Shown: in pieces, positions 25,781-60,332 of the stretch
Numbering within the stretch: position 1 is the stretch's first letter
Layout of the letters: each line of letters opens with the position of its first letter
Source of the DNA: a virus
Reading direction: 5' to 3' (one strand)
Virus record (IMG/VR): IMGVR_UViG_3300020057_000027
Location: 1 to 64,000 of that record
Length of the DNA stretch: 64,000 nt
Notes under the pieces: model-generated
What the model saw: the letters and a program-made list of their open reading frames with translations, nothing else
The model's database searches: none
What the model was told of the DNA's origin: nothing
Program-made: the position numbers and the translations under genes

Positions 25781-26242
25781 ATGAATACTGAATTAACTGT
25801 AGATCTGATTGAAGTTCTTTTGAAGAAGCCAGATGACTTTCTAAAAGTCAAGGAAACTCTTACTCGCATTGGCGTAGCTTCAAAGCACGATAAAATTCTA
25901 TATCAATCTTGCCACATCTTACATAAGAAAGGTAAATACTATATCGTTCATTTTAAAGAGCTATTTAAGCTTGATGGTAAACCTACTAACATAACAGAAG
26001 AAGATCTTGCAAGACGTAACACAATTGCTAATATTATAGCTGAATGGGGTTTAGTTGATTTAGTAGATAAGGTTAGAACGTCGGCCCCAGTTGCTTCTAT
26101 TGCTACAATAAAGATTCTTCCATTCAAAGAAAAGAGAGATTGGAAACTTGAAGCGAAGTATAATATAGGTTCAAGTAAGAAAACAGTAAACCAAGTTTCA
26201 TCTCCAACAGTTAAAATCAAACAGCATGAACCAAAGGAATAA
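25781..26242 (+). CDS. regA: RegA translational repressor
   Basis: A 153-residue protein (T4 RegA is 122). Two blocks are nearly identical to T4: K-K-P-D-D-F-L-K-V-K-E-T-L-T-R near the N-terminus, then L-Y-Q-S-C-H-I-L and Y-Y-I-V-H-F-K-E. RegA binds ribosome sites of early phage mRNAs, including 44, 45 and its own, and blocks translation. Here it has about five extra N-terminal residues and a Lys/Ser-rich C-terminal extension. ATG 25781 is used; an in-frame TTG upstream is unlikely. Confidence 0.95.
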   Translation: MNTELTVDLIEVLLKKPDDFLKVKETLTRIGVASKHDKILYQSCHILHKKGKYYIVHFKELFKLDGKPTNITEEDLARRNTIANIIAEWGLVDLVDKVRTSAPVASIATIKILPFKEKRDWKLEAKYNIGSSKKTVNQVSSPTVKIKQHEPKE

Positions 26243-26244
26243 TT

Positions 26245-26778
26245 ATGAGTGAATTAGTTATTGCGGGACTACCACAACTAGGAATTTTCAAACAAGATTT
26301 AGAAGCAAAACTTCCTGAGTTTGCTACAGAGTCTTCTGCTTGTTTTGATCTACGTGCTTGTATTTCTCCATCACAAGTTATTAAGAAAAGAAATGGTATA
26401 GACAATTTAGAAATTACAACTACAGTTGGGCCAGAAAGAAAGATTGATCTTCTTCCTGGAGATAGAGTTCTAGTTCCTACTGGACTTATTTTTGATATAC
26501 CTGTTGGGTATTCAGTTAGACTACATCCGCGTTCTGGTTTAGCATTAAAGAATGGTATTACACTTGCTAATGCTGAAGGCGTTATTGATGCTGATTATGT
26601 TGATCCAGTTTTCGTGTTACTAATAAACACTTCAGATAAACATTTTACAGTAAATCATGGTGATAGAGTTTGCCAAGGTGAATTGGTAAAAGTGGAACCT
26701 CTTATAATCACTGAACTAAATGACGCTCCGCTTCCAAAGACTAACCGAAATGGTGGGTTTGGATCTACAGGAATATAA
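26245..26778 (+). CDS. dut: dUTP diphosphatase (dUTPase)
   Basis: A 177-residue trimeric-type dUTPase with all five motifs: A-C-F-D-L-R-A (I), H-P-R-S-G-L-A-L-K-N-G-I (II), G-V-I-D-A-D-Y (III), G-D-R-V-C-Q-G (IV) and the C-terminal N-R-N-G-G-F-G-S-T-G (V). It hydrolyses dUTP to dUMP, keeping uracil out of DNA and feeding ThyX (54304). It is slightly longer than bacterial enzymes because of an insertion after motif I. AGGAATA ribosome site; two bases after regA. Confidence 0.96.
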   Translation: MSELVIAGLPQLGIFKQDLEAKLPEFATESSACFDLRACISPSQVIKKRNGIDNLEITTTVGPERKIDLLPGDRVLVPTGLIFDIPVGYSVRLHPRSGLALKNGITLANAEGVIDADYVDPVFVLLINTSDKHFTVNHGDRVCQGELVKVEPLIITELNDAPLPKTNRNGGFGSTGI

Positions 26779-26808
26779 TTGACAGCTTTATATCTATTGT
26801 GATATACT
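26779..26808 (+). promoter_or_regulatory. Strong promoter, predicted leaderless
   Basis: TTGACA (26779-26784), 18-base spacer, extended -10 TG-A-TATACT (26803-26808), ending six bases before ATG 26815. Its sequence from the -10 region onward (TGTGATATACTTATAGTAT) is identical to the CobT-like promoter. Confidence 0.85.
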
Positions 26809-26814
26809 TATAGT

Positions 26815-27519
26815 ATGAGAATAGTTTGTATAAGCGATACACACACGCTTCAAGATAACATGACTGCTGATATCCCAGAAGGAGATGTTCTCCTTCATGC
26901 TGGTGATGTTATGAATTCGGGTTATGATGCTAGTGATATTTTCTATTTCTTGGATTGGTTCGGTGCTTTACCCCATAAGCATAAAATTTTCATTGCTGGT
27001 AATCACGATAGACTTTTTGAAAATGATCCTAAAGCAGTAAAAGATATAATTGATAAAAAGAATGGTGTATTAAAATCTTCTAAGAAAAAGAAAATTACAT
27101 ATCTTGAGGATTCTGAAATCGTCATTGATGGTGTTAAGTTTTATGGTTCTCCATATCAGCCTGAATTTTGTAATTGGGCCTTCAATGTGAATCGCGGCCC
27201 TGATATTAAAAGAGTGTGGGATAAGATCCCATTGGACACGGATGTCCTCATCACTCACGGACCTCCATATGGTATTCTTGATTGGACAGAATACGATAGA
27301 TTAAATGTTGGTTGTGAAATGTTAATGCCAAAGATTTTAGAAGTTAAACCAAAGATACATTTGTTTGGACATATACACGAAGCATATGGAGTTAAAGTAG
27401 TAGATGATACAACTTTTGTAAATGCTTCTATTTGTACTCTGAGATATAGACCTATAAATAAACCTATAGTATTTGACTATCATCCAGAAAACAAACTTGT
27501 AGTAGAGGTTACAGAATGA
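26815..27519 (+). CDS. Calcineurin-like metallophosphoesterase
   Basis: A 234-residue metallophosphoesterase with the canonical metal sites: S-D-T-H (7-10), G-D-V (near 31), G-N-H-D (near 63), T-H-G-P-P (near 149) and G-H-I-H (near 184). The pattern is that of the small phosphodiesterase/phosphatase group; the substrate (nucleotide, cyclic nucleotide or nucleic acid) cannot be told. The ATG is six bases after a strong -10 box with no ribosome site, so the mRNA is predicted leaderless. It overlaps the lysozyme gene by four bases. Confidence 0.85.
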   Translation: MRIVCISDTHTLQDNMTADIPEGDVLLHAGDVMNSGYDASDIFYFLDWFGALPHKHKIFIAGNHDRLFENDPKAVKDIIDKKNGVLKSSKKKKITYLEDSEIVIDGVKFYGSPYQPEFCNWAFNVNRGPDIKRVWDKIPLDTDVLITHGPPYGILDWTEYDRLNVGCEMLMPKILEVKPKIHLFGHIHEAYGVKVVDDTTFVNASICTLRYRPINKPIVFDYHPENKLVVEVTE

Positions 27520-27965
27520 AAACTTTAGGCAAAGCAGGATCAGACTTAATTAAAGAGTTTGAACAATTAAAACTTGTTGGTTATCTTCCAACACCTAATG
27601 ATGTTCCTACTATTGGTTGGGGTTCTACTCATATCTTTGGCTGTAAAGTTATTCTTAAAGAAACTATTACACAAGAACAAGCACAAGCCCAGTTTGATTT
27701 AGATGTTGCTACTTTTGTTGCCGCAGTAAATAAAAAAGTTGCTGTTCCATTAACACAGAATCAGTTTGATGCATTGGTATCATTGGTGTATAATATTGGT
27801 GAAGCCAATTTTGCTTCTTCTACACTATTAAAAATGCTTAATGGTAATAGAATGAAAGAAGCTAAAGATCAATTTGTTCGGTGGAATAAACAGAAAGGAA
27901 AAGTTCTGAATGGTTTAACCAGACGAAGAGAAAGAGAACGCGATTTATTTGTGAAGGAAAATTAA
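27516..27965 (+). CDS. Endolysin, T4-type lysozyme (GH24)
   Basis: A 149-residue muramidase of the phage-lysozyme family. The catalytic region shows E14-F-E16-Q-L-K-L...T32-I-G-W-G-S-T; the Asp of the usual Glu-Asp-Thr triad appears shifted (D29). Further family features are the A-L-V-S-L-V-Y-N-I-G helix and the C-terminal G-L-x-R-R-R-x-x-E. It cuts peptidoglycan at lysis. There is no signal peptide or SAR segment, so a holin is needed. It lies in the early replication region, translationally coupled to the phosphoesterase. Confidence 0.9.
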   Translation: MKTLGKAGSDLIKEFEQLKLVGYLPTPNDVPTIGWGSTHIFGCKVILKETITQEQAQAQFDLDVATFVAAVNKKVAVPLTQNQFDALVSLVYNIGEANFASSTLLKMLNGNRMKEAKDQFVRWNKQKGKVLNGLTRRRERERDLFVKEN

Positions 27966-27966
27966 A

Positions 27967-28257
27967 ATGAGTGATATATTAATTATTAGATTAGCAAGTG
28001 GTGAACAGATTTTAGGTGATATAGATCTGAACTATTCAGATACTCATGTGTTGGTCAAACATCCAACACAGATTGCCGCAGGCCCGAATCCTAAGACGGG
28101 ACAAATTGATGTGCATATGGCACCTCTACTAACATTAGCAGAAGAAAAAGAAATTCCATTAGCTAAGACTGCCATAACTTTTCATTACACTCCTATATTA
28201 GATATCAGAAACAAGTTTTCTAAACTATTTGGATCAGGATTAGTAGCACTATCATAA
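27967..28257 (+). CDS. Sm-like small phage protein
   Basis: A 96-residue protein starting D-I-L-I-I-R-L-A-S-G-E-Q-I-L-G-D-I, resembling the N-terminal strands of the protein at 10808 and of Sm-fold proteins in T4-like phages; a second beta region and an F-H-Y-T-P strand follow. No catalytic residues. It begins one base after the lysozyme stop. An RNA-binding role is possible but inferred only from fold resemblance. Confidence 0.45.
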   Translation: MSDILIIRLASGEQILGDIDLNYSDTHVLVKHPTQIAAGPNPKTGQIDVHMAPLLTLAEEKEIPLAKTAITFHYTPILDIRNKFSKLFGSGLVALS

Positions 28258-28266
28258 AAATCTGAG

Positions 28267-28295
28267 TTGACGCTAAACTCTTTTTATGGTATGAT
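28267..28295 (+). promoter_or_regulatory. Promoter for the DNA polymerase, predicted leaderless
   Basis: TTGACG (28267-28272), 17-base spacer, extended -10 TG-G-TATGAT (28290-28295), ending six bases before ATG 28302, which lacks a ribosome site. Confidence 0.75.
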
Positions 28296-28301
28296 GTTAT
28301 T

Positions 28302-30833
28302 ATGAGTGAAAAATTCTACACAAATTGTTCCGTCATTGGAAACACTATTCTTTATCGTGGTATAGAGAACGGTGAAAGAATAAAAGAGCGAGTGCAGTTT
28401 AAACCTAAACTGTTTCTTCCAACAAATAAACCATCAAAATATAAAACGCTTGATGGTCAAGCTTGTGATAAGATTGAATTCGGTGATATCAAAGAAGCAA
28501 GAGATTTTGTAAAACAATATTCTGATGTTGATGGATTTAAGTTCTTTGGTAATACTCGTTGGGTATATGTTTATCTTTCGGATAGATTTCCTAATGTAGT
28601 TGAGTTTGATCCAACTAAGATCGTTGTCGCAAATATAGATATTGAGGTCGCTTCAGAAAACGGTTTTGCTCCTGTAGAAAATCCAACAGAAGAGATTACT
28701 GCAATCACAATCAAAGCTCACGGAAGGTTTTATGTTTTTGGTTGTGGTATCTTTGAAACAGATAGAGAAGATGTTAAGTATATCAAGTCACGCAATGAAC
28801 CTGAGATGCTCAGAAAGTTTATTGAGTTCTGGGAAACTCTTGCTCCAGATGTAGTTACTGGTTGGAATTGTCTGCCGCTCAATAGTTTTGTTTACACTAA
28901 TAACTCAATTAAAAAACTTAAAAATCTTTATAATAAAGAAATTTTAAATATTGATAATAATGTTACAAATTTATATCCAAAAAGCACCAAAAGAATTTGG
29001 GAGATAAATTTAGCCACTGGTCAAAAAATATCCTCTTCAGGTGAACATAAATTTTTTACTTGTAAACCGAAAGTTCCATATCAGAATATCACTCAAATGT
29101 TAAAAGCCGGAATTTGGACAGAATCTAAAAATATTGACAAAGAATCATTCCTGGTTATTCCAAAACATAAAAATATAAACCAAACAACAGTAGAAGATTT
29201 AGATTTGTTTTATGTTTTAGGGATGCTATTTACCGACGGCACTAAACAGGGTAAGGCCGCCGCAATTTACAACACTAAAGATGAAATTATAAATCGCGTT
29301 GCATTATTTACACAAAAACATAAAATCGCTAACCATGCAAGCAAAAGCGGAATATCACTCAGTCATAGACCGTGTAAAAGAGTTAGAATGTGGCTAAGAG
29401 ATGACCACATTCTTAGCCAGTATATTCATTTAATTTATAACGATGACAAAAAAGAATTAAATGTTGAAGAATTGTCAAAACTATCCAAAGAAGAATTTGA
29501 GTATTTTTTATCGGGTTTAATAGACGGCGACGGTTCCGTTGGTAAAAATGGTAAAATTAGTTTTTGTAATTATAATGATCAAATATCAAACTTAAATGAA
29601 TTGTTGTTATGGAATGGAATTATATCTAGTGGATTTACAGCAAATAGACTTTATATTTCTAAAAGGTGTGAAGTCAATTTAAAACTGTCACATCCAATAA
29701 AAAAATCTCGATTGCTTTCCGCCGACATGAATTTTTTTAGAGCAAAATCCGCTCCAAATAAAATTGCCAAAATATTAGAAAACGATGATTGTTATTTGGT
29801 TAAAGTTAAATCAGTTGTAGAAACTTCTGAATATACCGAAATGATGGATATAGAAACATCAACGCACGAATTTATTGTAAGTGGCGTTAAAACTCACAAT
29901 TGCACCTTTTACGATATACCTTATATTGTTAACAGAATATCCAGAGTGTTTAGTGACAAAGAAGCAAAAAGGCTTTCTCCTTGGGGATTTTTGTCCACTA
30001 GGTCATCTAACTATAAAGGTAAACAACATCAAGTTGTAGAGATAGTTGGTATCAGTACATTAGACTATATTGAATTGTATAGAAAGTTTGGTGCTAGACA
30101 AGAGAGTGAGAAATTAAATTACGTTGCATATGCCGAGCTAGGTGAGAAAAAGATTTCTTATACTGAATTTGGTAGTTTGCACGAACTATATAAGCATGAC
30201 TATCAAAAGTTTATTGAGTATAACATCAAAGACGTTGATCTAGTTGATAAGCTTGAACAGAAGCTCCAGTTGATCAACATGAGTTTTGCAATGGCATTTG
30301 ATGCTAAGGTAAACTTTTCTGATGTGTTCACACAAACAAGAATGTGGGATGCTATCATCTTTGATTACGTTAAAAAGAAAGACTTAGTATTACCACAGGT
30401 TAAAGAGACAGCAAAAGATGAACAGTACGCTGGAGGCTATGTTAAAGAGATTACTCCTGGGATGTATGATTGGGTTTTATCATTCGATCTTAACTCTCTA
30501 TATCCTAACCTAATTGCACAGTTTAATATTTCACCTGAGATGTTAATCCAAGAACAGGTAGACACAGAAACTTTTAGAAAGAAGTCTACTGAAGAGGGTA
30601 TCAAGTATGATATATCTCCACTGCTGGATAAGAAACTTGATCTATCACATTTAAAAGATAAGAACATAACAATGGCAGCAAACGGATATGCTTTTCTAAA
30701 AGAGAAGCAAGGTTTTCTTCCAGATATATTGATGCGTATGTATGAAGATAGAAAGATGTATAAGAAGAAAATGATTGAAGCTCAAAAAGATCTTGAGCTA
30801 GTTAAAGAAGAAATGCGTAGACGTGGAATATAA
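28302..30833 (+). CDS. 43A: DNA polymerase gp43, N-terminal part (gp43A), with intein
   Basis: An 843-residue precursor; without the 344-residue intein it is 499 residues and covers the N-terminal domain, the 3'-5' exonuclease (Exo I N-I-D-I-E-V-A-S; Exo II G-W-N^C-T-F-Y-D-I-P; Exo III Y-N-I-K-D-V-D) and the palm up to Pol motif II (F-D-L-N-S-L-Y-P). It ends in the fingers after Y-E-D-R-K-M-Y-K-K-K-M. The remaining motifs are in gp43B at 32955, 2.1 kb away. Together the exteins total 868 residues (T4 gp43 898). Split gp43 genes are known in some T4-like phages and the halves associate. The ATG has no ribosome site and sits at a predicted transcript start. Confidence 0.95.
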   Translation: MSEKFYTNCSVIGNTILYRGIENGERIKERVQFKPKLFLPTNKPSKYKTLDGQACDKIEFGDIKEARDFVKQYSDVDGFKFFGNTRWVYVYLSDRFPNVVEFDPTKIVVANIDIEVASENGFAPVENPTEEITAITIKAHGRFYVFGCGIFETDREDVKYIKSRNEPEMLRKFIEFWETLAPDVVTGWNCLPLNSFVYTNNSIKKLKNLYNKEILNIDNNVTNLYPKSTKRIWEINLATGQKISSSGEHKFFTCKPKVPYQNITQMLKAGIWTESKNIDKESFLVIPKHKNINQTTVEDLDLFYVLGMLFTDGTKQGKAAAIYNTKDEIINRVALFTQKHKIANHASKSGISLSHRPCKRVRMWLRDDHILSQYIHLIYNDDKKELNVEELSKLSKEEFEYFLSGLIDGDGSVGKNGKISFCNYNDQISNLNELLLWNGIISSGFTANRLYISKRCEVNLKLSHPIKKSRLLSADMNFFRAKSAPNKIAKILENDDCYLVKVKSVVETSEYTEMMDIETSTHEFIVSGVKTHNCTFYDIPYIVNRISRVFSDKEAKRLSPWGFLSTRSSNYKGKQHQVVEIVGISTLDYIELYRKFGARQESEKLNYVAYAELGEKKISYTEFGSLHELYKHDYQKFIEYNIKDVDLVDKLEQKLQLINMSFAMAFDAKVNFSDVFTQTRMWDAIIFDYVKKKDLVLPQVKETAKDEQYAGGYVKEITPGMYDWVLSFDLNSLYPNLIAQFNISPEMLIQEQVDTETFRKKSTEEGIKYDISPLLDKKLDLSHLKDKNITMAANGYAFLKEKQGFLPDILMRMYEDRKMYKKKMIEAQKDLELVKEEMRRRGI
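28869..29900 (+). other. Intein in gp43 exonuclease motif, with LAGLIDADG endonuclease
   Basis: Residues 190-533 of gp43A. It begins CLPLNSFVYTNN, ends T-H-N, with Cys as +1 residue, restoring G-W-N-C-T-F-Y-D-I-P. LAGLIDADG helices are L-G-M-L-F-T-D-G and L-S-G-L-I-D-G-D-G. The fold appears complete. The codons are more AT-rich than the flanking polymerase sequence. Confidence 0.93.
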
Positions 30834-30855
30834 TCCAAACCTATCCAATTGGGTG

Positions 30856-30885
30856 TTGACATAATACTCTAAACTGTGGTATAAT
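30856..30885 (+). promoter_or_regulatory. Strong promoter, predicted leaderless
   Basis: TTGACA (30856-30861), 18-base spacer, extended -10 TG-G-TATAAT (30880-30885), five bases before ATG 30891. It drives the genes inserted between the polymerase halves. Confidence 0.85.
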
Positions 30886-30890
30886 AAAAT

Positions 30891-31469
30891 ATGAGCAAAA
30901 CATTTTTCACTGCCGATACTCACTTTGGACACGCAAACATTATTCGTTATTGTGGTCGTCCATTTGAAACTAAAGAAGAACACGATAGAGTTTTAATTGA
31001 AAACTGGAACCACGAAGTATCTCCAAAAGATACGGTGTATCATCTTGGTGATTTTGGTTTTGGTACTCTAGAAGAACTGAGAAAGATTGCTGGCAAACTT
31101 CACGGACGTATTCACTTTCTTAAAGGTAATCACGATAAACCATCTACACTTGATGTTATTGGTGGTAGGTTTGCTTCTATTAAAGATGTGAGTATAATCT
31201 ATCCTAGATATAATGATCGTAAGGTTACAATCTTTCTATCTCACTATGCTCATAGATCTTGGTTCAAGTCTAATCATGGTTCTTGGCATCTTTGGGGACA
31301 CTCTCATGGTAATATGAGTCCACACGGATTGTCTTTTGATGTTGGAGTTGACTGCTGGGACTTCAGACCTATATCTTTGGATCAGGTAGCTAATAAGATT
31401 GCCAGTCTACAGCAAGTCTTGGATTATAATCTAGCAGACCAACATTTAGTAGAAGACAAAGAAAGTTAA
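30891..31469 (+). CDS. Calcineurin-like phosphoesterase (inserted in split gp43)
   Basis: A 192-residue single-domain phosphoesterase: A-D-T-H-F-G-H (residues 8-14), H-L-G-D-F-G (near 51), K-G-N-H-D (near 79), L-S-H-Y-A-H (near 117) and G-H-S-H-G (near 137). This is the pattern of the YfcE/MJ0936-like small phosphodiesterases seen in many phages. It is unrelated in detail to the 234-residue enzyme at 26815. It is the first gene of the three-gene insert separating gp43A and gp43B, has its own strong promoter, and starts without a ribosome site. Confidence 0.88.
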   Translation: MSKTFFTADTHFGHANIIRYCGRPFETKEEHDRVLIENWNHEVSPKDTVYHLGDFGFGTLEELRKIAGKLHGRIHFLKGNHDKPSTLDVIGGRFASIKDVSIIYPRYNDRKVTIFLSHYAHRSWFKSNHGSWHLWGHSHGNMSPHGLSFDVGVDCWDFRPISLDQVANKIASLQQVLDYNLADQHLVEDKES

Positions 31470-31475
31470 TTGTGA

Positions 31476-31481
31476 TATAAT
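31476..31481 (+). promoter_or_regulatory. Extended -10 promoter, predicted leaderless
   Basis: TG-A-TATAAT ends six bases before ATG 31488; no clear -35 box or ribosome site. It would drive the endonuclease-methyltransferase pair. Confidence 0.5.
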
Positions 31482-31487
31482 ATAATT

Positions 31488-32210
31488 ATGTCTAAAATAA
31501 CATTTAAAGAAATGCAAACTGCAATAGCCTCTCTTCAAAGTAGAGGCGGCAACATTCTTCAAGATATTTTTACTGATGTAATTAAAGTATATAATAAAAA
31601 TATAAAATATAATAGTCTAAAAAATATTCAAAGTATAAAAAAATTAATTAGAACTGATCCAGAAGAATCTAGATTTTTCACTCAAGTTATTATAGATCCA
31701 TACTCAGCAAACAAATCATCTAAAGCAGATTTAGTTATTTGGAAAAATAATGAATTGTTGTTGGTAGAATTAAAAAATGGCTCCAAATTTGATAAGGGAA
31801 AAACTCAAAATATTATTTTGGGCATAGAAACATGGAATGAATATATTAAAGAGCATTTTGTTTATGATGATTTTTTAGTTAGATCTTTAATTGTATGTTT
31901 TGATGAGAACCAATTAAAAGATATTCGGGCAAAATTAAAGGATTTTACTATATCAGGGAAAAAGTTTTGTGATATGTTAGAATTAGATTATAATTTTATA
32001 AGATTGAGTTCAGAAAATTGGATAGAATATAAATTTCAGCAGTTTCAAAACGGAGATAGTCAATGGAAAAAAAACGAAGATTACGCCCATTTTTTAAATG
32101 GTCAGGCGGCAAATCAAAAGAGTTGCCCAAGATCAGGAATTATTATCCGAAGGAATACAACATTAGAAGATATATTGAACCCTTCGTTGGAGGCGGCGCA
32201 GCCTGGTTAG
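31488..32210 (+). CDS. PD-(D/E)xK restriction-endonuclease-like protein
   Basis: A 240-residue protein with a nuclease core: S-K-A-D-L-V-I-W then E-L-L-L-V-E-L-K-N-G (residues ~83-104) gives the D...E-x-K triad of the PD-(D/E)xK fold. The domain before it is helical. Its last ~49 codons overlap the methyltransferase start (32063) by 148 bases in another frame; that tail has unusual composition and is probably not part of the nuclease core. Pairing with a downstream amino-methyltransferase suggests a type II restriction-modification unit. The specificity is unknown. It is more AT-rich than its surroundings, suggesting recent acquisition. Confidence 0.65.
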   Translation: MSKITFKEMQTAIASLQSRGGNILQDIFTDVIKVYNKNIKYNSLKNIQSIKKLIRTDPEESRFFTQVIIDPYSANKSSKADLVIWKNNELLLVELKNGSKFDKGKTQNIILGIETWNEYIKEHFVYDDFLVRSLIVCFDENQLKDIRAKLKDFTISGKKFCDMLELDYNFIRLSSENWIEYKFQQFQNGDSQWKKNEDYAHFLNGQAANQKSCPRSGIIIRRNTTLEDILNPSLEAAQPG

Positions 32211-32953
32211 CAATTAATCATGATATTAATATTATTAATGATTTTAATCCTGAAGTAGCTAATTTTTATAGAATATTAAAATCCGACACTAATAAACTTA
32301 TAACTTCTATTAATTTTTTGGTTGATGAATATAATTCTTATGATAAAAAACTTTTAACAAAAACTGAATTCCAAACTTTAGGTGATAAATTTTATTATAA
32401 TTATAGAGATATTCCAGCCAAGAATGATTTTGATGCCGCACTTGGTTTTTATTTTATACGACAATTATCCTTTTCAGGAATGATTAGATATAATAGTAAA
32501 GGACAGTTTAATGTTCCTTTTGGTTGGTATAAAAAAATGCATGGTATTAATCAAGAAGAAAAATTGATAAAAAATATATTAAACAACACAGAAATATTAT
32601 GCGGAGATTGGAAGAAATCAGTTCAAAATTCTTCTTCAGAAGATTTTATATTTTTAGATCCACCATACACAACAACATTTAAAGATTATAATTTTGGAGC
32701 TGGTTCTGCTTTTGGAAAAGAACAACATATTGAATTATATGATTGGTTTGCTAATACATCATCAAAAGTATTAATTATATTGAATTATGATGATTTTACT
32801 GGTAAACTATATGAAAATCATATTAAAGAAAAATATGGTCATAATTATAGTATAAAATATAAAGACAGAGTTAGTAAAGAGGATAGTGCTAATATACATT
32901 TTGTTGCTACTAATTATGATGTTAAAATTAAAAAAGATAGTATATTAGAATAA
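32063..32953 (+). CDS. Dam-family (D12 class) adenine methyltransferase
   Basis: A 296-residue enzyme with the D12-class motifs: F-F-K-W-S-G-G-K-S-K-E-L at the N-terminus (motif X), E-P-F-V-G-G-G-A-A-W (motif I), and D-P-P-Y-T (motif IV, catalytic). It also has the family's S-F-S-G-M-I-R-Y-N-S-K-G-Q-F-N-V-P segment. Such enzymes make N6-methyladenine, commonly in GATC or related sites. It overlaps the upstream endonuclease gene by 148 bases, implying co-expression. It is distinct from the second dam at 37984 and ends one base before gp43B. Confidence 0.88.
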   Translation: MEKKRRLRPFFKWSGGKSKELPKIRNYYPKEYNIRRYIEPFVGGGAAWLAINHDINIINDFNPEVANFYRILKSDTNKLITSINFLVDEYNSYDKKLLTKTEFQTLGDKFYYNYRDIPAKNDFDAALGFYFIRQLSFSGMIRYNSKGQFNVPFGWYKKMHGINQEEKLIKNILNNTEILCGDWKKSVQNSSSEDFIFLDPPYTTTFKDYNFGAGSAFGKEQHIELYDWFANTSSKVLIILNYDDFTGKLYENHIKEKYGHNYSIKYKDRVSKEDSANIHFVATNYDVKIKKDSILE

Positions 32954-32954
32954 T

Positions 32955-34064
32955 ATGAATGATTTAAGTAAACTTTCAGACGCCGAGTTAAAGAACGAAG
33001 CTCGGCGTCTTTCATTTGATATCTCCAAGTATAATAATTATCAGACCACAAAAAAGGTTCAATTGAATTCTGCTTATGGTGCTATGGGTAATCAATATTT
33101 TAGATTCTATGATGTTCGTTTGGCAGAAGCGGTAACTTTATCTGGACAATTAGTCATTCAGTGGCTAGCTAATGATATCAATGCGTATCTTAATACCCTG
33201 TTAAAGACATCCAAGGTTGATTATATCGTTGCTAGTGACACAGATTCGCTCTATATTCGCTTAGATGGGTTGGTTAATGCTGCTTATGGTGGTAAGCTCC
33301 CAGAAGACCGTAGCAAGGTCGTAGACCTATTAGACAAGGTAGCTGAAGACAAGCTACAGAAGGTCATAGACAAGTCGTGTGAGAGTTTAAAGACTTATCT
33401 CAATGCGTTCTCACAGAAGATGGTAATGAAGCGCGAGAGCATTGCAGACAAAGGTATTTGGACAGCAAAGAAAAATTACATCTTAAATGTTTGGGATAGT
33501 GAGGGTGTTAGATATGATAAACCAAAACTAAAAGTTATGGGTATATCAGCAATCAGATCGTCCACTCCAGAGGTATGTAGAAATCATATTAAGAAAGCAA
33601 TTGAAATAGTGATGACTCAGAGACAAGTAGATCTTCACAAGTACATCGCAGAATTTAAGAAAGACTTCAAAAACCTTCCACCTGAAGAGGTTGCGTTCCC
33701 TCGTGGCTTGAATACGTTTGATGAGAAAGAAACTTTCGGAAGTAAGACTACAATGTCCATCCACGCCAGAGGTGCTTTGCTTTATAATGAACTAATAAAG
33801 AAAAACAAACTAAACAAAAAATACCCTTGCATCCAAGAGGGAGATAAGGTAAAATTCATATATCTGAAACAACCGAATGTTGTTCACAGTCACGTTATAA
33901 CTATGGCAGAAGAAGGTCTACCAAAAGAATTAAACTTACATAAGTATGTTGATTATGATGTACAGTTTGAAAAGAGTTTTCTTGATCCGTTGAAGATCAT
34001 TCTTAATTCTATTAAATGGACGACAAAGAAGGTTTCAACTTTAGAAGATATATTTGGAGATTAA
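32955..34064 (+). CDS. 43B: DNA polymerase gp43, C-terminal part (gp43B)
   Basis: A 369-residue protein carrying the rest of the family-B polymerase: Pol motif III (K-K-V-Q-L-N-S-A-Y-G), catalytic motif I (A-S-D-T-D-S-L-Y), the K-K-N-Y-I-L-N thumb region and the C-terminal clamp-binding end (S-T-L-E-D-I-F-G-D; T4 ends S-L-F-D-M-F-D-F). It cannot work alone: Pol II and the exonuclease are in gp43A. The break falls in the variable fingertip. No good ribosome site precedes ATG 32955, and a 10-bp hairpin (32978-33010) lies in its first codons, so its translation may be coupled to the methyltransferase. Confidence 0.95.
   Translation: MNDLSKLSDAELKNEARRLSFDISKYNNYQTTKKVQLNSAYGAMGNQYFRFYDVRLAEAVTLSGQLVIQWLANDINAYLNTLLKTSKVDYIVASDTDSLYIRLDGLVNAAYGGKLPEDRSKVVDLLDKVAEDKLQKVIDKSCESLKTYLNAFSQKMVMKRESIADKGIWTAKKNYILNVWDSEGVRYDKPKLKVMGISAIRSSTPEVCRNHIKKAIEIVMTQRQVDLHKYIAEFKKDFKNLPPEEVAFPRGLNTFDEKETFGSKTTMSIHARGALLYNELIKKNKLNKKYPCIQEGDKVKFIYLKQPNVVHSHVITMAEEGLPKELNLHKYVDYDVQFEKSFLDPLKIILNSIKWTTKKVSTLEDIFGD
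32978..33010 (+). terminator. GC-rich hairpin inside the start of gp43B
   Basis: AGACGCCGAG (32978-32987) and CTCGGCGTCT (33001-33010) form a 10-bp perfect stem with a 13-base loop, followed by TTCATTT. It resembles an intrinsic terminator but lies in codons 8-19 of gp43B, so it may attenuate transcription or structure the mRNA. Confidence 0.6.
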
Positions 34065-34065
34065 T

Positions 34066-35130
34066 ATGGCGAAAGATAATTTTTTTGGAGAGCTTGATAA
34101 GCTATTAGAAAATGAATATGCTGGTATTGCCGATGACGGTACTTCTGCTGATGTTGTTGGTTTTCTTGATACCGGCAGTTACATTCTCAATGCTCTTTAT
34201 AGTGGTAGCATCTTTAGAGGTATGCCAGCGAATAAGATATCTGCATTGGCTGGCGAAGAGTCTACAGGTAAGACTTTCTTCATGCTTGCAATACTTAAAA
34301 ACTTTCTTGAAGATCCGAAAGCCGTAGCAATCATATTTGAATCAGAAGGTTCAATCACAAAAGAAATAATGTCCGAACGTGGTATTGATACCAAACGTGT
34401 TTATATTGTTCCAGTTGAAACTATTCAACAGTTTAAAACTCAGGCGGTGCGAGTAGTTGAAAAGCATTTGAAGACTCCAGAAAAGGAAAAGCGGCCCTTG
34501 TTTATGGCATTAGATTCTCTCGGAATGTTATCTACAACTAAAGAGATGGCAGATTCAGAGAGTGGCAAGGAAGTAAAAGATATGACTCGTACCCAAGAAA
34601 TAAGGGCCGCTTTTCGTGTTCTGACTTTGAAGCTAAGTAAAGCAAAGATTCCTCTGGTGGTAACTAATCACGTTTATCAATCTGTAGGTTCATTCTTTCC
34701 AACTAAAGAAATGGCTGGCGGTGGTGGTTTGAAGTATGCCGCCAATAATATTATTACACTTGGCAAAGCTAAAGAGAAAGATGCTGATGGAACTGTAACA
34801 GGTGCTATCATTAGATGTAAGGTTATGAAGTCCCGCTTAACTAGAGAGCAGATTGAAGCTAGGGTTCTTCTATCGTTTGATAGAGGTCTAGATCGCTTCT
34901 ATGGTTTGCTTGAAGTAGCATTAGAGCATAAGATCTTTGAAAAGGTAGTAAACAAAGTAAAACTGCCAGATGGCACATTAGTGTTTGAAAAAGTTATTCT
35001 TAAGAATCCAGAAAAGTATTTCACTGAAGAGATCTTAAAGAAGATTGATGTTTGTGTTGGAGGAGACTTTAAGTTTGGCACTACGATTGATACAGAGGAC
35101 GTTGTAGAGGAGATTCTTCTTAATGAATAA
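34066..35130 (+). CDS. uvsX: UvsX recombinase (RecA family)
   Basis: A 354-residue RecA-type strand-exchange protein (T4 UvsX is 391). Walker A is G-E-E-S-T-G-K-T (near residue 63); Walker B is M-A-L-D-S-L-G-M, and V-T-N-H-V-Y-Q with G-G-G-G-L-K-Y-A-A forms the L2/ATP-sensing region. It drives homologous pairing for recombination-dependent replication, working with UvsY (7642). ATG 34066 is preferred for its GGAG site; an earlier codon at 34054 overlaps gp43B. It is directly downstream of gp43B and upstream of gp41. Confidence 0.95.
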   Translation: MAKDNFFGELDKLLENEYAGIADDGTSADVVGFLDTGSYILNALYSGSIFRGMPANKISALAGEESTGKTFFMLAILKNFLEDPKAVAIIFESEGSITKEIMSERGIDTKRVYIVPVETIQQFKTQAVRVVEKHLKTPEKEKRPLFMALDSLGMLSTTKEMADSESGKEVKDMTRTQEIRAAFRVLTLKLSKAKIPLVVTNHVYQSVGSFFPTKEMAGGGGLKYAANNIITLGKAKEKDADGTVTGAIIRCKVMKSRLTREQIEARVLLSFDRGLDRFYGLLEVALEHKIFEKVVNKVKLPDGTLVFEKVILKNPEKYFTEEILKKIDVCVGGDFKFGTTIDTEDVVEEILLNE

Positions 35131-35260
35131 ACAAGCTAAAATTAAATTGGTTAAATTATTAAATAAACTTAACGAAATGCCACAACACGAATGGCACAAG
35201 AAAGAATTGATTATGGCCGAAATGCTTACTATCATAGCAGAGGAAATTTGTGACAGTTGA
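35123..35260 (+). CDS. Small hypothetical protein (45 aa)
   Basis: A 45-residue frame starting inside the uvsX stop (8-base overlap) with an AGGAG ribosome site about ten bases upstream. The peptide is basic and helical (K-L-V-K-L-L-N-K-L-N-E). Its last 11 bases overlap the following gene. Overlap at both ends and a good ribosome site support coding; function unknown. Confidence 0.5.
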   Translation: MNKQAKIKLVKLLNKLNEMPQHEWHKKELIMAEMLTIIAEEICDS

Positions 35261-35603
35261 AATAAAAGAAAAATATAAAATCAAATATGATCCTAATGAT
35301 AAGGCTAGATGGTTTGTTCAGCTAACAGATCTAGCTGGAGTCTTTGCTGGCGTGATGTATGGTTATGGAGCATTTAGAATTAAAGAGCCAGAAAGTCCAG
35401 ATGGTAATTTGATGTTTAGTTTTGAACGAGATATTCTATACGTACCAGAAGGCCTGAAAGGTAAAGAGTTATCAGATGATCAAGAAAAAGAATTTACTAT
35501 ATTGCTTGGCTCAATACTATATGATATACTACAAGACAACCTCAATAAAGTTTCAGAACGAGGCGATAAGCTAGTCTTGGAGTTAGAGTCTAATGATAAA
35601 TGA
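35250..35603 (+). CDS. Hypothetical 117-aa protein (GTG start)
   Basis: A 117-residue protein starting at GTG 35250, which has an AGGAAA ribosome site. It has a central hydrophobic but not clearly membrane-spanning stretch (L-A-G-V-F-A-G-V-M-Y-G-Y-G) and an acidic C-terminal helix. It overlaps both neighbours by about 11 bases in the uvsX-41 operon. No domain is recognised. Confidence 0.5.
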   Translation: MTVEIKEKYKIKYDPNDKARWFVQLTDLAGVFAGVMYGYGAFRIKEPESPDGNLMFSFERDILYVPEGLKGKELSDDQEKEFTILLGSILYDILQDNLNKVSERGDKLVLELESNDK

Positions 35604-36951
35604 TAGAGTTGAAATATTAATCATAAAGAATTTATTCTTTAATGAACCATATACAAGAGAAGTTCTTCCTTTTATAATGCCTGAATATTTTTCTGATGAA
35701 GCTGAAAGAACGCTTGTCACAAAAATAAAAACCTTTATAACTAATTTCAATCATCTTCCTACTCGTGAAGCTATTATCATTCAGGTATCTAATGATACAA
35801 AACTATCACAACCAACAGAAGATAAAATTAGAGAGATTGTTTCTAATTTAAATAATGATGAGAAAAGTGATCCTAAATTCTTAATAGAAGAATCACAAAA
35901 GTTTTGCCAACAAAAAGCATTGGTAAATGCTGTATACAGTACAGTTGATATATTAGAAGACCCTAAGAAAGAGAAAGGTATAATTCCTAAACTACTTAGT
36001 GATGCACTTGCTGTATCCTTTGATCCGAGTGTTGGTCATAGTTATCTTGATGATGCTGATGCAAGATTTGAAACTTATCATAAAACAGAAGAGAAGTTTC
36101 CATTTGACCTATCATATTTTAATAAGATTACTAGGGGTGGTGTTCCAAGAAAGACTTTAAATGTTATTCTTGCTGGAACTGCTGTAGGTAAATCACTTGC
36201 AATGTGCCATATGGCAGGCTCATATTTAATGTCGGGCAAAGATGTTCTATACATTACACTTGAAATGGCACAAGAAAGAATAGCAGAACGTATTGATGCT
36301 AATCTATTGAACGTATCAATGCAGGATCTAGCATCATTACCTAAAGATCTTTATGATAAAAAGATTGCTGCTATTAAAAGTAAAACAGTTGGTAGATTTT
36401 TCATCAAAGAATATCCTACTGCCACAGCATCCGCAACAAACTTTAGAGCATTGTTAAATGAACTTGCATTAAAGAAATCTTTTAGACCTGATGTAATCTT
36501 TGTTGATTATCTGAACATCGCAACAAGTAGCCGACTAGGTAATAATCAAACGGTAAACTCATACACATATGTAAAGAGTATAGCAGAAGAACTTAGAGGT
36601 ATGGCAGTAGAGTTTAATGTTCCAATTTGGACTGCTACACAAACTAATCGCTGTCTAACATTAGATAGTAGCATTATAACTAAAAAAGGTACATTACCTT
36701 TAGGTGATATTAAAGTGGGAGATAGTGTGTTATCTGATGTTGGTTGGAATAATGTTTTGCGTGTGTATCCAATAGAAAAACAGAAAACATATCTTATCAA
36801 AACAAAGTCAGGTAAAACTATAAAATGTTCTGCTAGACATTTATTTCCTTCTAGCGGTGGTTTATTGTCTATTGATAGTGGTCTTAAAATCGGGGATGGT
36901 CTGCAAAACAGAGATGATAAAAAAAGTAATGAAAAATGGAATGTTTTTTGA
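35593..36951 (+). CDS. 41: Replicative helicase gp41 N-terminal part with N-intein
   Basis: A 452-residue protein: 353 residues of DnaB-like helicase followed by a 99-residue N-terminal half-intein. The helicase part has Walker A G-T-A-V-G-K-S (195-201), Y-I-T-L-E-M, and Walker B V-I-F-V-D-Y-L-N. It stops in T-A-T-Q-T-N-R, immediately followed by the intein Cys354. The C-terminal part of the helicase is in the next frame (36936). Joined exteins total 476 residues (T4 gp41 475), so nothing of the helicase is missing. gp41 is the hexameric 5'-3' fork helicase that works with primase gp61 (53058). Confidence 0.95.
   Translation: MINDRVEILIIKNLFFNEPYTREVLPFIMPEYFSDEAERTLVTKIKTFITNFNHLPTREAIIIQVSNDTKLSQPTEDKIREIVSNLNNDEKSDPKFLIEESQKFCQQKALVNAVYSTVDILEDPKKEKGIIPKLLSDALAVSFDPSVGHSYLDDADARFETYHKTEEKFPFDLSYFNKITRGGVPRKTLNVILAGTAVGKSLAMCHMAGSYLMSGKDVLYITLEMAQERIAERIDANLLNVSMQDLASLPKDLYDKKIAAIKSKTVGRFFIKEYPTATASATNFRALLNELALKKSFRPDVIFVDYLNIATSSRLGNNQTVNSYTYVKSIAEELRGMAVEFNVPIWTATQTNRCLTLDSSIITKKGTLPLGDIKVGDSVLSDVGWNNVLRVYPIEKQKTYLIKTKSGKTIKCSARHLFPSSGGLLSIDSGLKIGDGLQNRDDKKSNEKWNVF
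36652..36948 (+). other. Split intein, N half (gp41)
   Basis: Residues 354-452: CLTLDSSIITKKG (block A), L-P-L-G-D-I-K-V-G-D, T-I-K-C-S-A-R-H-L-F-P (block B with its His). No endonuclease domain is present. It ends at a TGA after T6. Layout and insertion point (N-R before Cys, Ser at +1) resemble the gp41-8 split intein known from aquatic metagenomes. Confidence 0.9.
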
Positions 36952-37073
36952 AAAAATGGATTTATATGTTTGATGAAATAGTAGAAATTGTTGAAATTGG
37001 ATACGAAGACGTTGTGGATATTGAAGTGTCCGGTAATAATTTATTTTATGCCAATGACATCTTAACGCATAAT
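36936..37073 (+). other. Split intein, C half (gp41)
   Basis: Residues 1-46 of the downstream gene: MECFLKKWIYMFDEIVEIVE..., then V-V-D-I-E-V-S-G-N-N-L-F-Y-A-N-D-I-L-T-H-N. Blocks F and G are intact, with terminal H-N and Ser at +1. Its length equals that of the gp41-8 C-intein, and it begins with its own Met, as expected for a true split intein. Confidence 0.9.
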
Positions 37074-37445
37074 TCAGGCTTTGTATCCACTGATATTGGA
37101 TTAGAAAACACCTCCGAGAGTTTTGGTTTACCGGCCACGGCAGATTTTATGGTTGCACTTTGGACTACAGAAGAGTTAGAAAAACTTGGACAAATAGTTG
37201 TAAAACAACTCAAAAACAGGTATAATGATGTAACAACATATAAAAAGTTTGTAGTTGGAATAGATCGATCTAAGATGAGATTATTTGATCTTGATGAAAG
37301 CGCACAAAAAGGTTTACAAGATTCTGGCACAGGCGATGACAAAGACGATGATGTTCCAGCATTTGATAAATCAAAATTTGGTAATGGGATGAAAGCAGAA
37401 AATAAAGTTTATGACAAGTCTAAATTCTCCGATGTTAATTTTTAG
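36936..37445 (+). CDS. 41: Replicative helicase gp41 C-terminal part with C-intein
   Basis: A 169-residue protein: a 46-residue C-terminal half-intein (ATG 36936) and 123 residues completing gp41, starting S-G-F-V-S-T-D and including V-K-Q-L-K-N-R-Y-N-D-V-T and V-G-I-D-R-S-K-M-R-L-F as in T4 gp41's end. The C-terminal ~50 residues are an acidic, Lys-rich tail. The frame overlaps the N part by 16 bases in the -1 frame, so expression probably depends on reinitiation. A second possible start is ATG 36966, which would shorten the C-intein to 36 residues. No strong ribosome site is visible. Confidence 0.93.
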   Translation: MECFLKKWIYMFDEIVEIVEIGYEDVVDIEVSGNNLFYANDILTHNSGFVSTDIGLENTSESFGLPATADFMVALWTTEELEKLGQIVVKQLKNRYNDVTTYKKFVVGIDRSKMRLFDLDESAQKGLQDSGTGDDKDDDVPAFDKSKFGNGMKAENKVYDKSKFSDVNF

Positions 37446-37983
37446 ATAACTTCTTTGCCATATATTTGTTAATATTTAATTGTCTACACGCCTCTCTAAT
37501 ACTTACATATTCTATATTGTTTATAGTAATTGGTTTTCTATTGGGTTGTAGCATTTGATTTCCTTTACTTTTGGATGATTTTTCTTTAAAAATTGTTTTT
37601 GTTTTTTTGGTATGTTTCTTTCCATAAAAGGGATTATTAATTCCTTTTCTTTGTTTACTTAATTTATCTTTCTGTTTTTGTGTCCAGCTTCTACCACAAG
37701 TTCCATCTCCACCTTCAGTTGAATTAAATCCACATTTGAATGTGTTGTATTTTTTAATATATTCTTTTTCCTTGTTTTTTGCTTCTATTTGTGTTAAACT
37801 ATCTTCTAATATGATAAAAGAAAATGAATCCCATCCATATTTGCCTATGGCATTAGATATGTGGGTATTGATGTGTTTATATGAATGTTTGTGCCAACAT
37901 TTTCTGGCTGTAGGATCTTTACTCAATCCTATATATTTACGTCCTGAAATAATATGTTCTAAACAATAGATAGACCAATTCAT
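37435..37983 (-). CDS. GIY-YIG homing endonuclease (only minus-strand gene)
   Basis: A 182-residue free-standing endonuclease on the opposite strand: I-Y-C-L-E-H-I-I-S-G-R-K-Y-I-G-L-S at residues ~5-21 is the GIY-YIG core, with E in K-E-K-E-Y-I-K-K. It is followed by a NUMOD3 repeat (K-G-I-N-N-P-F-Y-G-K-K-H-T) and a C-terminal helix-turn-helix segment (S-I-R-E-A-C-R-Q-L-N-I). It sits exactly between gp41 and dam: its stop overlaps the gp41 stop and its start codon abuts the dam ATG (CAT-ATG). Possibly it is the mobility factor of the adjacent split intein. Confidence 0.88.
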   Translation of the reverse strand: MNWSIYCLEHIISGRKYIGLSKDPTARKCWHKHSYKHINTHISNAIGKYGWDSFSFIILEDSLTQIEAKNKEKEYIKKYNTFKCGFNSTEGGDGTCGRSWTQKQKDKLSKQRKGINNPFYGKKHTKKTKTIFKEKSSKSKGNQMLQPNRKPITINNIEYVSIREACRQLNINKYMAKKLSKN

Positions 37984-38835
37984 ATGAATAATACTTCAAC
38001 AGTAGATGATAATAAGTATTTAGTGAATCCTCCATTTAAGTGGGTTGGTGGAAAAAGAAGATTATTACCAAAAATAGTACCTTTACTTCCAGAAAAATAT
38101 AATGGTTATTATGAGCCATTCTTGGGTGGTGGTGCCCTATTCTTCCATCTTCAACCTAAAGAAGCATATATCTCAGATGTTAATGCTGAATTGATTAATG
38201 CGTATCAAACTATTAAAAATCGTTTAAGTCTTTTAATTGTAGAATTAAATAAGTATGAAAATAATGAAGATTACTTTTTATCAGTCAGAGAACTTGATAG
38301 AGATCCTAAAGTGTTTTCTAAGCTTAGTTCAGTTCAACGTGCTGCCAGGTTTATTTACTTAAACAAAACTTGTTTCAATGGTTTGTATAGAGTAAACTCA
38401 AAAGGCCAGTTCAATGTTCCATTCGGACATTATAGTTCACCAAACTTCTTAGATATAGAAAATCTTAATGCGTGTTCACTAGCATTAAAAAATACTACGA
38501 TATCATGTGAAAGTTTTACTTCTGTTTTAAGTTATGCTGAATATGGAGATTTTGTTTACTTTGACCCTCCATATATTCCAGATGGTATCAGTTCAACTTT
38601 TACCCAATATACTAAAGATGGTTTTGGTATGATTGAACAACAAGAGTTATTAGATGTTTGTCATCTATTAGATGCTCGTGGAGTTAAATGGATGCTTTCT
38701 AATTCTTCTGCTCCGATAGTCTATACTATGTACGAAAAGTTTAACATTGACACAGTAGAGGTTAATAGAAGCGTTGGTGCTAGTGCTGAGAGCCGCAGAA
38801 AGGTGAACGAAGTCATAGTCAGAAATTATAAGTAA
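37984..38835 (+). CDS. dam: Dam DNA adenine methyltransferase
   Basis: A 283-residue D12-class enzyme: P-P-F-K-W-V-G-G-K-R-R-L-L-P-K-I (motif X), Y-E-P-F-L-G-G-G-A-L-F-F (motif I), T-C-F-N-G-L-Y-R-V-N-S-K-G-Q-F-N-V-P-F-G, and D-P-P-Y-I-P (motif IV). It is close in layout to DpnM/Dam enzymes that methylate adenine in GATC. No endonuclease partner is next to it, so it is likely an orphan that protects phage DNA from host restriction. The ATG abuts the divergent endonuclease gene; no ribosome site is visible. Confidence 0.92.
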   Translation: MNNTSTVDDNKYLVNPPFKWVGGKRRLLPKIVPLLPEKYNGYYEPFLGGGALFFHLQPKEAYISDVNAELINAYQTIKNRLSLLIVELNKYENNEDYFLSVRELDRDPKVFSKLSSVQRAARFIYLNKTCFNGLYRVNSKGQFNVPFGHYSSPNFLDIENLNACSLALKNTTISCESFTSVLSYAEYGDFVYFDPPYIPDGISSTFTQYTKDGFGMIEQQELLDVCHLLDARGVKWMLSNSSAPIVYTMYEKFNIDTVEVNRSVGASAESRRKVNEVIVRNYK

Positions 38836-54303: not shown

Positions 54304-55938
54304 ATGACTGATGAAGAACAGAAGACCAAACGACACGAAGCATTAACAAAACTAACACAGATGTCCCAAGATATGGGTTTATATGATACACCTGAAGACA
54401 GAATTGTCCGAGTCCTAGATAAAGGATTTGTTCGTCTAGTTGATAGTATGGGTAATGATAGTTCTATCGTACAAGCTGCCAGAGTTTCTTATGGAGAAGG
54501 CACTAAGAAAGTTAGTGAAGATGAAGGCCTCATTAGATATCTTCTAAGACATAGACATACTACACCAATGGAGATGGTTCAATTTAAGTTCCACGTTAAG
54601 GCGCCAATATTTGTTATTCGCCAATGGCACCGCCATAGAACTTGGTGTTTATCTGGAGATACCGAATTGTGGTATGATAGTCCTAGTTCAATCAGAGAAG
54701 GCACAAAAGGTAGAAATAAAATTACTATTGCAGATTTTTATGATAAATGGCACCACGGCGCCAAGCCTATTACTACACAAGATGGTATTATTATGAGAAT
54801 GCCATTAAAAAAATATTTAGAAAAAAGATCATTCAGGTGTTTGAATGAAGAAAATAAAACCATAGAACATACCAATATTACTGACGTATGGAAATCTGGC
54901 ATTAAACATATATTTGAAATTGAGTTAGAAAACGGATATAAAATAAAAACATCTCAAGATCATTTATTTTATACTGAAAATGGTTGGAAAAAATTAAAGG
55001 AGTTTGTTGGCATAAAAAATACAGATATTGTGTATTGGGATGATATTTCTCTTTATACTAACGGACAGTCAGTAAATTCTAGTTATTTTGAAAAAGGTAG
55101 TATTCCTTGGAATAATAATATAAAAATCCCACCAGAAGAAAAGAAAGCAAAATGTCATCGGGGTCATCACTTGGTAGGTAAACTAAGCAAAATTAAAAAA
55201 GTCTCTTATGTGGGACAGGAATATACCTATGATATCTCCGTTTCTGGTTCTTTTCATAATTTTATTGCTAATGGTTTTGTAGTCCATAATTCTTATAATG
55301 AAGAATCAGGAAGATATTCTGAAATGAAAAATGAATATTATGTTCCAGATCCCAGTAAAGTCACCTTTCAAAATCCTAATAATAAACAAGGCGGCACAGA
55401 TGATATCATAACACCTTTTAATATTAAGAATCCTGATGATTGGTGGGATTGTTTAACTCCAGAACAAATTGCTTCTACTTGGAACTGGCAGAAATATTTT
55501 GAAGACGAACAAAAATTAACTAGACATAATTATGAAAGATATTTGAATAGTGGAATGAGAAAAGAGTTAGCAAGAATTAATCTTCCTTTAGCTCAATATT
55601 CTCAGATGTATGGATGTGTAGATCTACATAATCTCTTCCACTTCTTGAAGTTGCGCCAAGATCCTCATGCACAATATGAGATTAGAGTTTATGCTGATGC
55701 GTTGCTTCAGTTAATCCAACCTATTGTTCCTGTGGCAGTTAAAGCATATGAAGATTATATTCTTAATTCTGTTACATTAACAGGTAAAGATATAGAAGCA
55801 TTGAAAGATGCACTACGTTCTGTGGATGAAAGTTTATTTTTTGGTAGTGCTATCGGCTCGGCCGCCAATACTGTTTTTTCCAATAAGAGAGAAAAAGATG
55901 AATTCCTAGCAAAAATTCAACGTCTAAAACATATATAG
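54304..55938 (+). CDS. thyX: Flavin-dependent thymidylate synthase ThyX with intein
   Basis: A 544-residue precursor; the mature enzyme is 329 residues. The ThyX signature R-H-R-x-x-S-x-N-E-x-S-x-R is interrupted: R-H-R-T-W, intein, [15 protein letters not shown] (FAD/dUMP contacts) and R-x-x-L-P-L-A-Q-Y-S are present. ThyX converts dUMP to dTMP with NADPH and methylene-folate, complementing dUTPase. It is longer than bacterial ThyX, with an ~80-residue insertion after the signature. GAGGAATA ribosome site. Confidence 0.94.
54646..55290 (+). other. Mini-intein in ThyX signature motif
   Basis: Residues 115-329 (215 residues): starts [12 protein letters not shown], has block B (K-T-S-Q-D-H-L-F), and ends F-V-V-H-N with Ser at +1. 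No LAGLIDADG helices; instead a segment with G-S-I-P-W-N-N-N and H-R-G-H-H looks like remnants of an HNH-type endonuclease. Probably splices but no longer homes. Confidence 0.9.
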
Positions 55939-60227: not shown

Positions 60228-60332
60228 ATGAAAATAAAATCAATAAAAATTGCTGGCATAGAATTAACGGGAGATGTTGAGGTGGCGAACACACATTCGT
60301 ATCAGTTAGAAAATGGATGCGTCTCTCATAAC
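60228..60332 (+). other. Split intein, C half (NrdJ intein 2)
   Basis: Residues 1-35 ending N-T-H-S-Y-Q-L-E-N-G-C-V-S-H-N, with Thr as +1 residue. Blocks F and G are intact; short size and its own Met mark a genuine C half of a split intein. Confidence 0.9.

Follow-up and report, generated by a model that had tools for sequence, protein, structure and literature searches.

A restriction-modification-like gene pair in the cargo gap of a split gp43 DNA polymerase gene of a T4-like virus

Introduction

Split genes for the family B DNA polymerase gp43 are known from the Aeromonas phages 25 and 44RR (Petrov, Ratnayaka and Karam 2010; PMC2988022), and the gp43A and gp43B proteins of phage 25 co-purify and are active (PMC2988022). 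Restriction-modification (R-M) systems are also carried by viruses, and their purposes differ: chloroviruses attack host DNA, while the system of a marseillevirus leaves host DNA undegraded and has been proposed to act against competitors (PMC7253447). In this study, we analysed a 64,000-nucleotide stretch (the window) comprising bases 1-64000 of the 164,106-bp IMG/VR record IMGVR_UViG_3300020057_000027 (G000), which belongs to a T4-like virus of bacteria. Between the two halves of its gp43 gene lie a phosphoesterase gene, a nuclease-like gene and a methyltransferase (MTase) gene. We consider it probable that gp43 was already split around a cargo gap, that an R-M-like pair was inserted at this tolerated site, and that the intein in the first half of the gene moved recently.

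Results

The genes of the locus lie on the plus strand in the order gp43A (28302-30833), metallophosphoesterase (30891-31469), nuclease-like open reading frame (ORF; 31488-32210), Dam-superfamily MTase (32063-32953) and gp43B (32955-34064), and the first-pass annotation, made from the sequence alone, had placed all five correctly. Two contigs from other metagenomes match the region without gaps: L001 over 32768-37934 (98.7% identity) and L246 over 25869-30473 (97.9% identity). Because these contigs agree, an assembly error in a single contig can explain neither the MTase/gp43B junction nor gp43A with its intein; the coverage of the two contigs stops short of 30474-32767.

RB69 gp43 was used as a ruler for the two halves (E-values are given in brackets throughout). 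gp43A carries the exonuclease, the start of the palm and the first half of the fingers, its 843 aa consisting of a 499-aa extein and a 344-aa intein (Pfam DNA_pol_B_exo1, 1.4e-16; DNA_pol_B, 2.7e-19; RB69 gp43, 1.5e-68). gp43B carries the second half of the fingers with motif B, the rest of the palm and the thumb (DNA_pol_B, 3.3e-11; RB69 gp43, 1.4e-57). On the RB69 scale, gp43A ends at about residue 508 and gp43B starts at about 527; in the alignment, residue 839 of the 843 in gp43A corresponds to residue 504, and residue 29 of gp43B to 555. This alignment places the break in a loop at the fingers tip, and bears out the earlier statement that gp43 stops in the fingers at 30833 and resumes at 32955. 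Together the two ORFs cover gp43, and both halves are conserved. Synonymous sites are saturated in the comparison with the nearest relative, locus L002, and the L005-L007 pair was taken instead; there the ratio of nonsynonymous to synonymous substitution rates (dN/dS) was 0.056 for gp43A and 0.094 for gp43B, indicating purifying selection on both. Searches with Pfam and NCBIfam profiles found no intein halves at the end of gp43A or the start of gp43B, which ruled out a fractured gene joined by a split intein, and no Rfam family was detected anywhere in the window that could point to an RNA intron in gp43. Because the break has neither an intein half nor a known RNA intron, the gp43 halves presumably assemble non-covalently, without a peptide bond, as those of phage 25 are reported to do (PMC2988022).

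Both gp43 halves were found at 77 loci, 61 with a continuous gene and 16, including the window, with a split one. At 12 loci of the window's clade (L002-L011, L013 and L016) the gene is broken at the same point and the gap, of 0.6-2.8 kb, holds other genes: dCMP (deoxycytidine monophosphate) deaminase, HNH endonuclease (L004; phrog HNH, 5.4e-36), endonuclease-like genes (for example in L006, 2.1e-6), phosphoesterase, and IMPDH/GMP reductase (inosine monophosphate dehydrogenase or guanosine monophosphate reductase). The last of these lies at 6877-7884 of L016 (2.2e-82). In the gp43 tree, the split members of the clade form one group of 13, whose sole unsplit member, L014, stands beside L007. 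The unsplit gp43 of L014 (2704-5250) is 97.8% identical upstream to the split, cargo-bearing gene of L007 (5412-9104); this identity reaches the last 25 nucleotides (nt) of gp43A and is 85% beyond, so that it drops at the split site. L014 may represent either a re-fusion or the acquisition of an unsplit downstream half by recombination. Further splits occur in L034 and L036 (65-nt gap), L044 (280-nt gap) and Aeromonas phage 25, and on present evidence these appear separate from the split of the window's clade. The tree thus indicates that the break predates the diversification of this clade and is older there than the R-M-like unit. The best explanation is that the gap has long served as a site for cargo, which in the window consists of a phosphoesterase and a type II R-M-like pair.

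The MTase of the pair, MT1, was identified as a Dam-superfamily N6-adenine MTase with a DPPY catalytic motif (NCBIfam dam, 4.9e-56; Pfam D12, 1.2e-36; DpnII MTase structure 2dpm, 2.3e-33), in agreement with its earlier assignment to the Dam family. In the MTase tree it belongs to a clade marked by an FSGM motif (the SGM clade), in which the nuclease is present at 39 of 51 loci, motif and position being the grounds of assignment for two of the 39. Of the 12 loci without it, 7 are on contig pieces shorter than 4.6 kb, where the neighbour may have been cut off. In the canonical NGL (Dam) clade the nuclease is present at none of 97 loci. The changes from N to S and from L to M affect what we take, from Dam structures, to be recognition loop positions, and they hint that MT1 may depart from canonical GATC reading. 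GATC is mildly under-represented (0.82), and counts of GATC and other palindromes were uninformative on specificity. A second Dam-family MTase with the canonical NGL motif, MT2 (37984-38835), belongs to the NGL clade; several relatives (L003, L006, L008 and L010-L012) also have it as a resident gene following gp41.

The nuclease-like protein (240 aa, with aa 1 to about 195 conserved) was recognised through its family. Its relatives emerged only via MTase neighbourhoods: scanning with the MTase alignment added 143 neighbourhoods (148 including named phages), and a profile grown from the nuclease found 37 relatives among the 1887 ORFs in them. In the alignment of these relatives, G21, E94, K96, D102 and K105 are invariant and D81 is nearly so, giving a G/D/ExK signature. 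Several of the relatives match PADLOC REase_II models (best 5.5e-21, L091), and one matches Pfam RE_TdeIII (2e-5). An AlphaFold2 model built from 29 sequences reached a predicted local distance difference test (pLDDT) score of 70 and a predicted template modelling (pTM) score of 0.66; a model from the nuclease sequence alone (pLDDT 32) was not used. In a Foldseek search of the PDB, the top matches of the 29-sequence model were mostly PD-(D/E)XK nucleases, at marginal E-values (best 1.8e-3), and included McrBC, BspD6I, BstEII and R2 endonuclease. The top viral Foldseek matches, M1HMA1 and A0A0P0YNF5, were not interpreted. A restriction endonuclease fold and active site are thus indicated by the family signature, the REase_II matches of the relatives and the model. 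Searched alone, the nuclease gives weak PD-(D/E)XK matches only (NERD, 0.0027; VRR_NUC, 0.005), and the suggestion of a PD-(D/E)XK nuclease-like gene gains support through the family. No match was obtained by tblastn with the nuclease in phages and plasmids or when viral and genome contigs were scanned with single-sequence nuclease patterns, and PDB sequence searches with the nuclease and with nuclease alignments gave no firm match.

The two genes appear to form a unit. All 37 nuclease relatives adjoin an MTase, 32 directly upstream and 5 directly downstream, and the split by MTase clade (39/51 vs 0/97) likewise shows the linkage of a type II R-M system. The closest MTases of named phages (STML-198, KP179, S-WAM2 and S-CAM8) are each preceded by a hypothetical gene whose product shows a D...(D/E)xK motif. 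In these phages, and in most other contig neighbourhoods read, the same pair lies away from gp43. In L091 the pair is found about 0.6 kb upstream of an intact gp43 ORF, and the pair may thus have a preference for the replication region. In L002 the phosphoesterase is followed directly by gp43B, with no counterpart of the nuclease and MTase, which together take up about 1.48 kb, so that the pair would be either an extra in the window or a loss in L002. Both genes have a low GC content (25-26%; 0.15-0.17 at third codon positions, GC3), below that of their neighbours, and no clear repeats were found flanking the pair. The overlap of 148 nt between them, reported in the first-pass annotation, is exact, compared with about 30 nt at most in the relatives. 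The nuclease tail at aa 210-240 has a pLDDT below 50, and the overlap looks like a run-on tail of the nuclease. The sequence comparisons support a conserved adjacent R-M-like unit found repeatedly among T4-like viruses, in most cases not at gp43, and by family, linkage and fold the idea of an R-M-like unit at this locus was sustained.

The intein of gp43A, missed in the first-pass annotation, occupies 28869-29900 in the exonuclease domain (344 aa, gp43A aa 190-533; plus strand; boundaries ...TGWN|C...HN|C...). It has a splicing domain (Pfam Intein_splicing, 3.2e-9), Cys as its first residue, an HN|C end and LAGLIDADG endonuclease motifs (LAGLIDADG_3, 2.9e-4). L002 carries the same intein, with DNA about 97% identical up to the intein's last base; the first mismatch is 12 nt past the intein end, after which identity falls to about 73%. 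Synonymous difference from L002 was 0.07 in the intein part compared, while the flanking gp43A is saturated. Because the intein is about 97% and its flank about 73% identical to L002, it has moved recently between the lineages of the window and L002; the movement would have occurred by LAGLIDADG homing.

The metallophosphoesterase (phrog_547, 7.4e-52; Pfam Metallophos_2, 7e-5, below the cut-off) also lies between the gp43 halves in L002 and L004 and is an older gap occupant; its dN/dS against L002 is about 0.10. The cargo genes had been described as all AT-rich and as having their own promoters. The former description fits the nuclease (25% GC) and the MTase (26%) but not the phosphoesterase (37%). 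The latter holds in part: a site identical to the sigma-70 consensus (12/12, TTGACA-18-TATAAT; 30856-30885, plus strand) precedes the phosphoesterase and a 10/12 match (31453-31481) precedes the nuclease, but these are consensus matches only, and 36 such matches occur over the region as a whole, where shuffled sequences give 29.4 +/- 5.0.

Several other mobile or intervening elements were observed in the record, which holds seven inteins in total (in gp43A, gp41, the reductase, UvsW, and ThyX-like and portal-like genes). The gp41 helicase gene is split inside a gp41-1-like intein into ORFs at 35593-36951 and 36936-37445, which overlap by 16 nt in different frames, as confirmed in L001; gp41 of L002 has no intein. 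The ribonucleotide reductase (NrdJ-like by eye) is encoded at 57516-60149 and 60228-60890, with 78 nt between the ORFs; it contains a LAGLIDADG-like cis intein (58503-59465) and a second, split intein with its N half at 59832-60149 and its C half at 60228-60332. Further inteins lie in UvsW at the Walker A motif (8640-9704), in a ThyX-like gene (54646-55290) and in a gene portal-like by eye (154607-155116 of G000). Two GIY-YIG endonuclease genes, at 37435-37983 (minus strand) and 4806-5552 (plus strand), are the only ones found in the record.

Discussion

The first-pass annotation proposed that the persistence of the R-M unit may be tied to the essential gene in which it lies. This was not borne out: in the gp43 tree the unit is younger than the split, 12 other split loci hold other cargo, and other carriers have the pair elsewhere. 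The same annotation held that its proposal would fail if close relatives had the split without these genes and no trace of mobility. The relatives do share the split without the pair, but a trace of mobility does exist, since the window has the pair and L002 does not. That a selfish R-M unit broke gp43 and was kept because its loss harms an essential gene would agree with this presence and absence between relatives and with the low GC and GC3 of the pair. Against this, the split predates the unit, other splits carry other cargo or almost none (65 nt in L034 and L036), and gp43 of L002 is still split without the unit. Such an origin is largely refuted by L002-L016, and we regard it as highly improbable. 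On the best reading, the pair entered gp43 at a site that tolerates insertion and did not itself cause the break.

Two other explanations concern the nuclease itself. It could be a free-standing homing endonuclease that targets gp43, with the MTase as a passenger or immunity gene and the whole cassette homing into unsplit gp43 alleles. The HNH (L004) and endonuclease-like (L006) genes in the gaps of relatives and the GIY-YIG-like homing endonuclease in the same gap of phage 25 are in keeping with this, and PD-(D/E)XK homing enzymes exist (cited in PMC10448857). A free-standing homing gene would have an insertion site of its own across genomes, but this family tracks the MTase and not gp43 (37/37 adjoin an MTase, and the neighbourhoods read are mostly away from gp43), and its relatives match type II REase models; we therefore consider homing of the cassette improbable. 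Alternatively, only the MTase may work, shielding phage DNA from host restriction while the nuclease decays. The Q at the conserved E25 position and the run-on C-terminal tail would fit decay; many phages carry Dam-type enzymes, and the same phage has a second, MT2. The nuclease ORF is nevertheless open across its whole conserved part and keeps D81, E94 and K96, and a role for the MTase alone seems unlikely to us.

Certain observations weigh against an R-M-like pair inserted at a tolerated site, the reading we prefer. The nuclease alone has only marginal profile matches; what links it to the STML-198 and KP179 nucleases is the motif, the position of the gene and a weak match in fold; it has Q in the E25 column, which is E in at least 90% of relatives; and it bears a 48-aa run-on tail. 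With 146 of the 1887 ORFs adjacent to an MTase, the chance of the observed linkage for 37 random hits is about 1e-43, a figure that assumes independent loci although many loci are related. L002 may also have lost the pair rather than never having had it.

If the pair acts as an R-M system, the MTase would modify a short site in phage DNA, and the nuclease would cut copies that lack the mark, namely the host chromosome (freeing nucleotides), co-infecting phage DNA, or both. Exclusion of co-infecting phages is a plausible candidate role of the pair. A bolder and improbable proposal is that T4-like viruses commonly carry an unrecognised type II R-M family, composed of a phrog_26553-like nuclease and an SGM-clade MTase, that tells their own DNA from that of hosts or rivals. 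Inside gp43, as in the window's lineage, it might be drive-like: rivals would be cut and repaired from the carrier, inheriting the pair together with gp43 markers. A search of an incomplete literature collection brought up no account of this pair in T4-like phages. The R-M-like pair is widespread and mostly unannotated in these viruses, and through it both self/non-self discrimination and restriction-based exclusion of rivals can be tested in cultured phages, S-CAM8 and S-WAM2 among them. The clade also provides a comparison series, with many cargoes, near-empty gaps and an unsplit relative, for the question of how an essential polymerase tolerates a break in one loop.

Among known systems, gp43 of Aeromonas phage 25 is similar in having the same fingers-tip break within a few residues and intervening cargo: its 43A ends in ...SRGIKTDH and its 43B has ...LSNDELQ, compared with ...RRGI and ...LSDAELK in the window. 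Phage 25 differs in that its gap holds a homing endonuclease and its 43B an intron. The gap of the window has no such gene but an R-M-like pair; in the window it is 43A that is interrupted, by an intein, and the phage lineage is a distant one. The gp41-1 type of split intein is represented by the neighbouring gp41, which matches PDB 6qaz (N half, 1.9e-16; C half, 1.9e-9); the gp43 break, without intein halves, is a different kind of fracture. In STML-198, KP179, S-WAM2 and S-CAM8, as in the window, the nuclease stands directly before an SGM-clade MTase and mostly overlaps it; unlike in the window, these pairs are not in gp43, and their nucleases are annotated as hypothetical and are very divergent, those of STML-198 and KP179 resembling the window's at motif level only. 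The nearest functional model is the marseillevirus and chlorovirus R-M, likewise a virus-borne REase with an N6-adenine MTase, although the hosts of these viruses are eukaryotes and the enzyme of the marseillevirus is a relative of CviAI that acts on GATC (PMC7253447).

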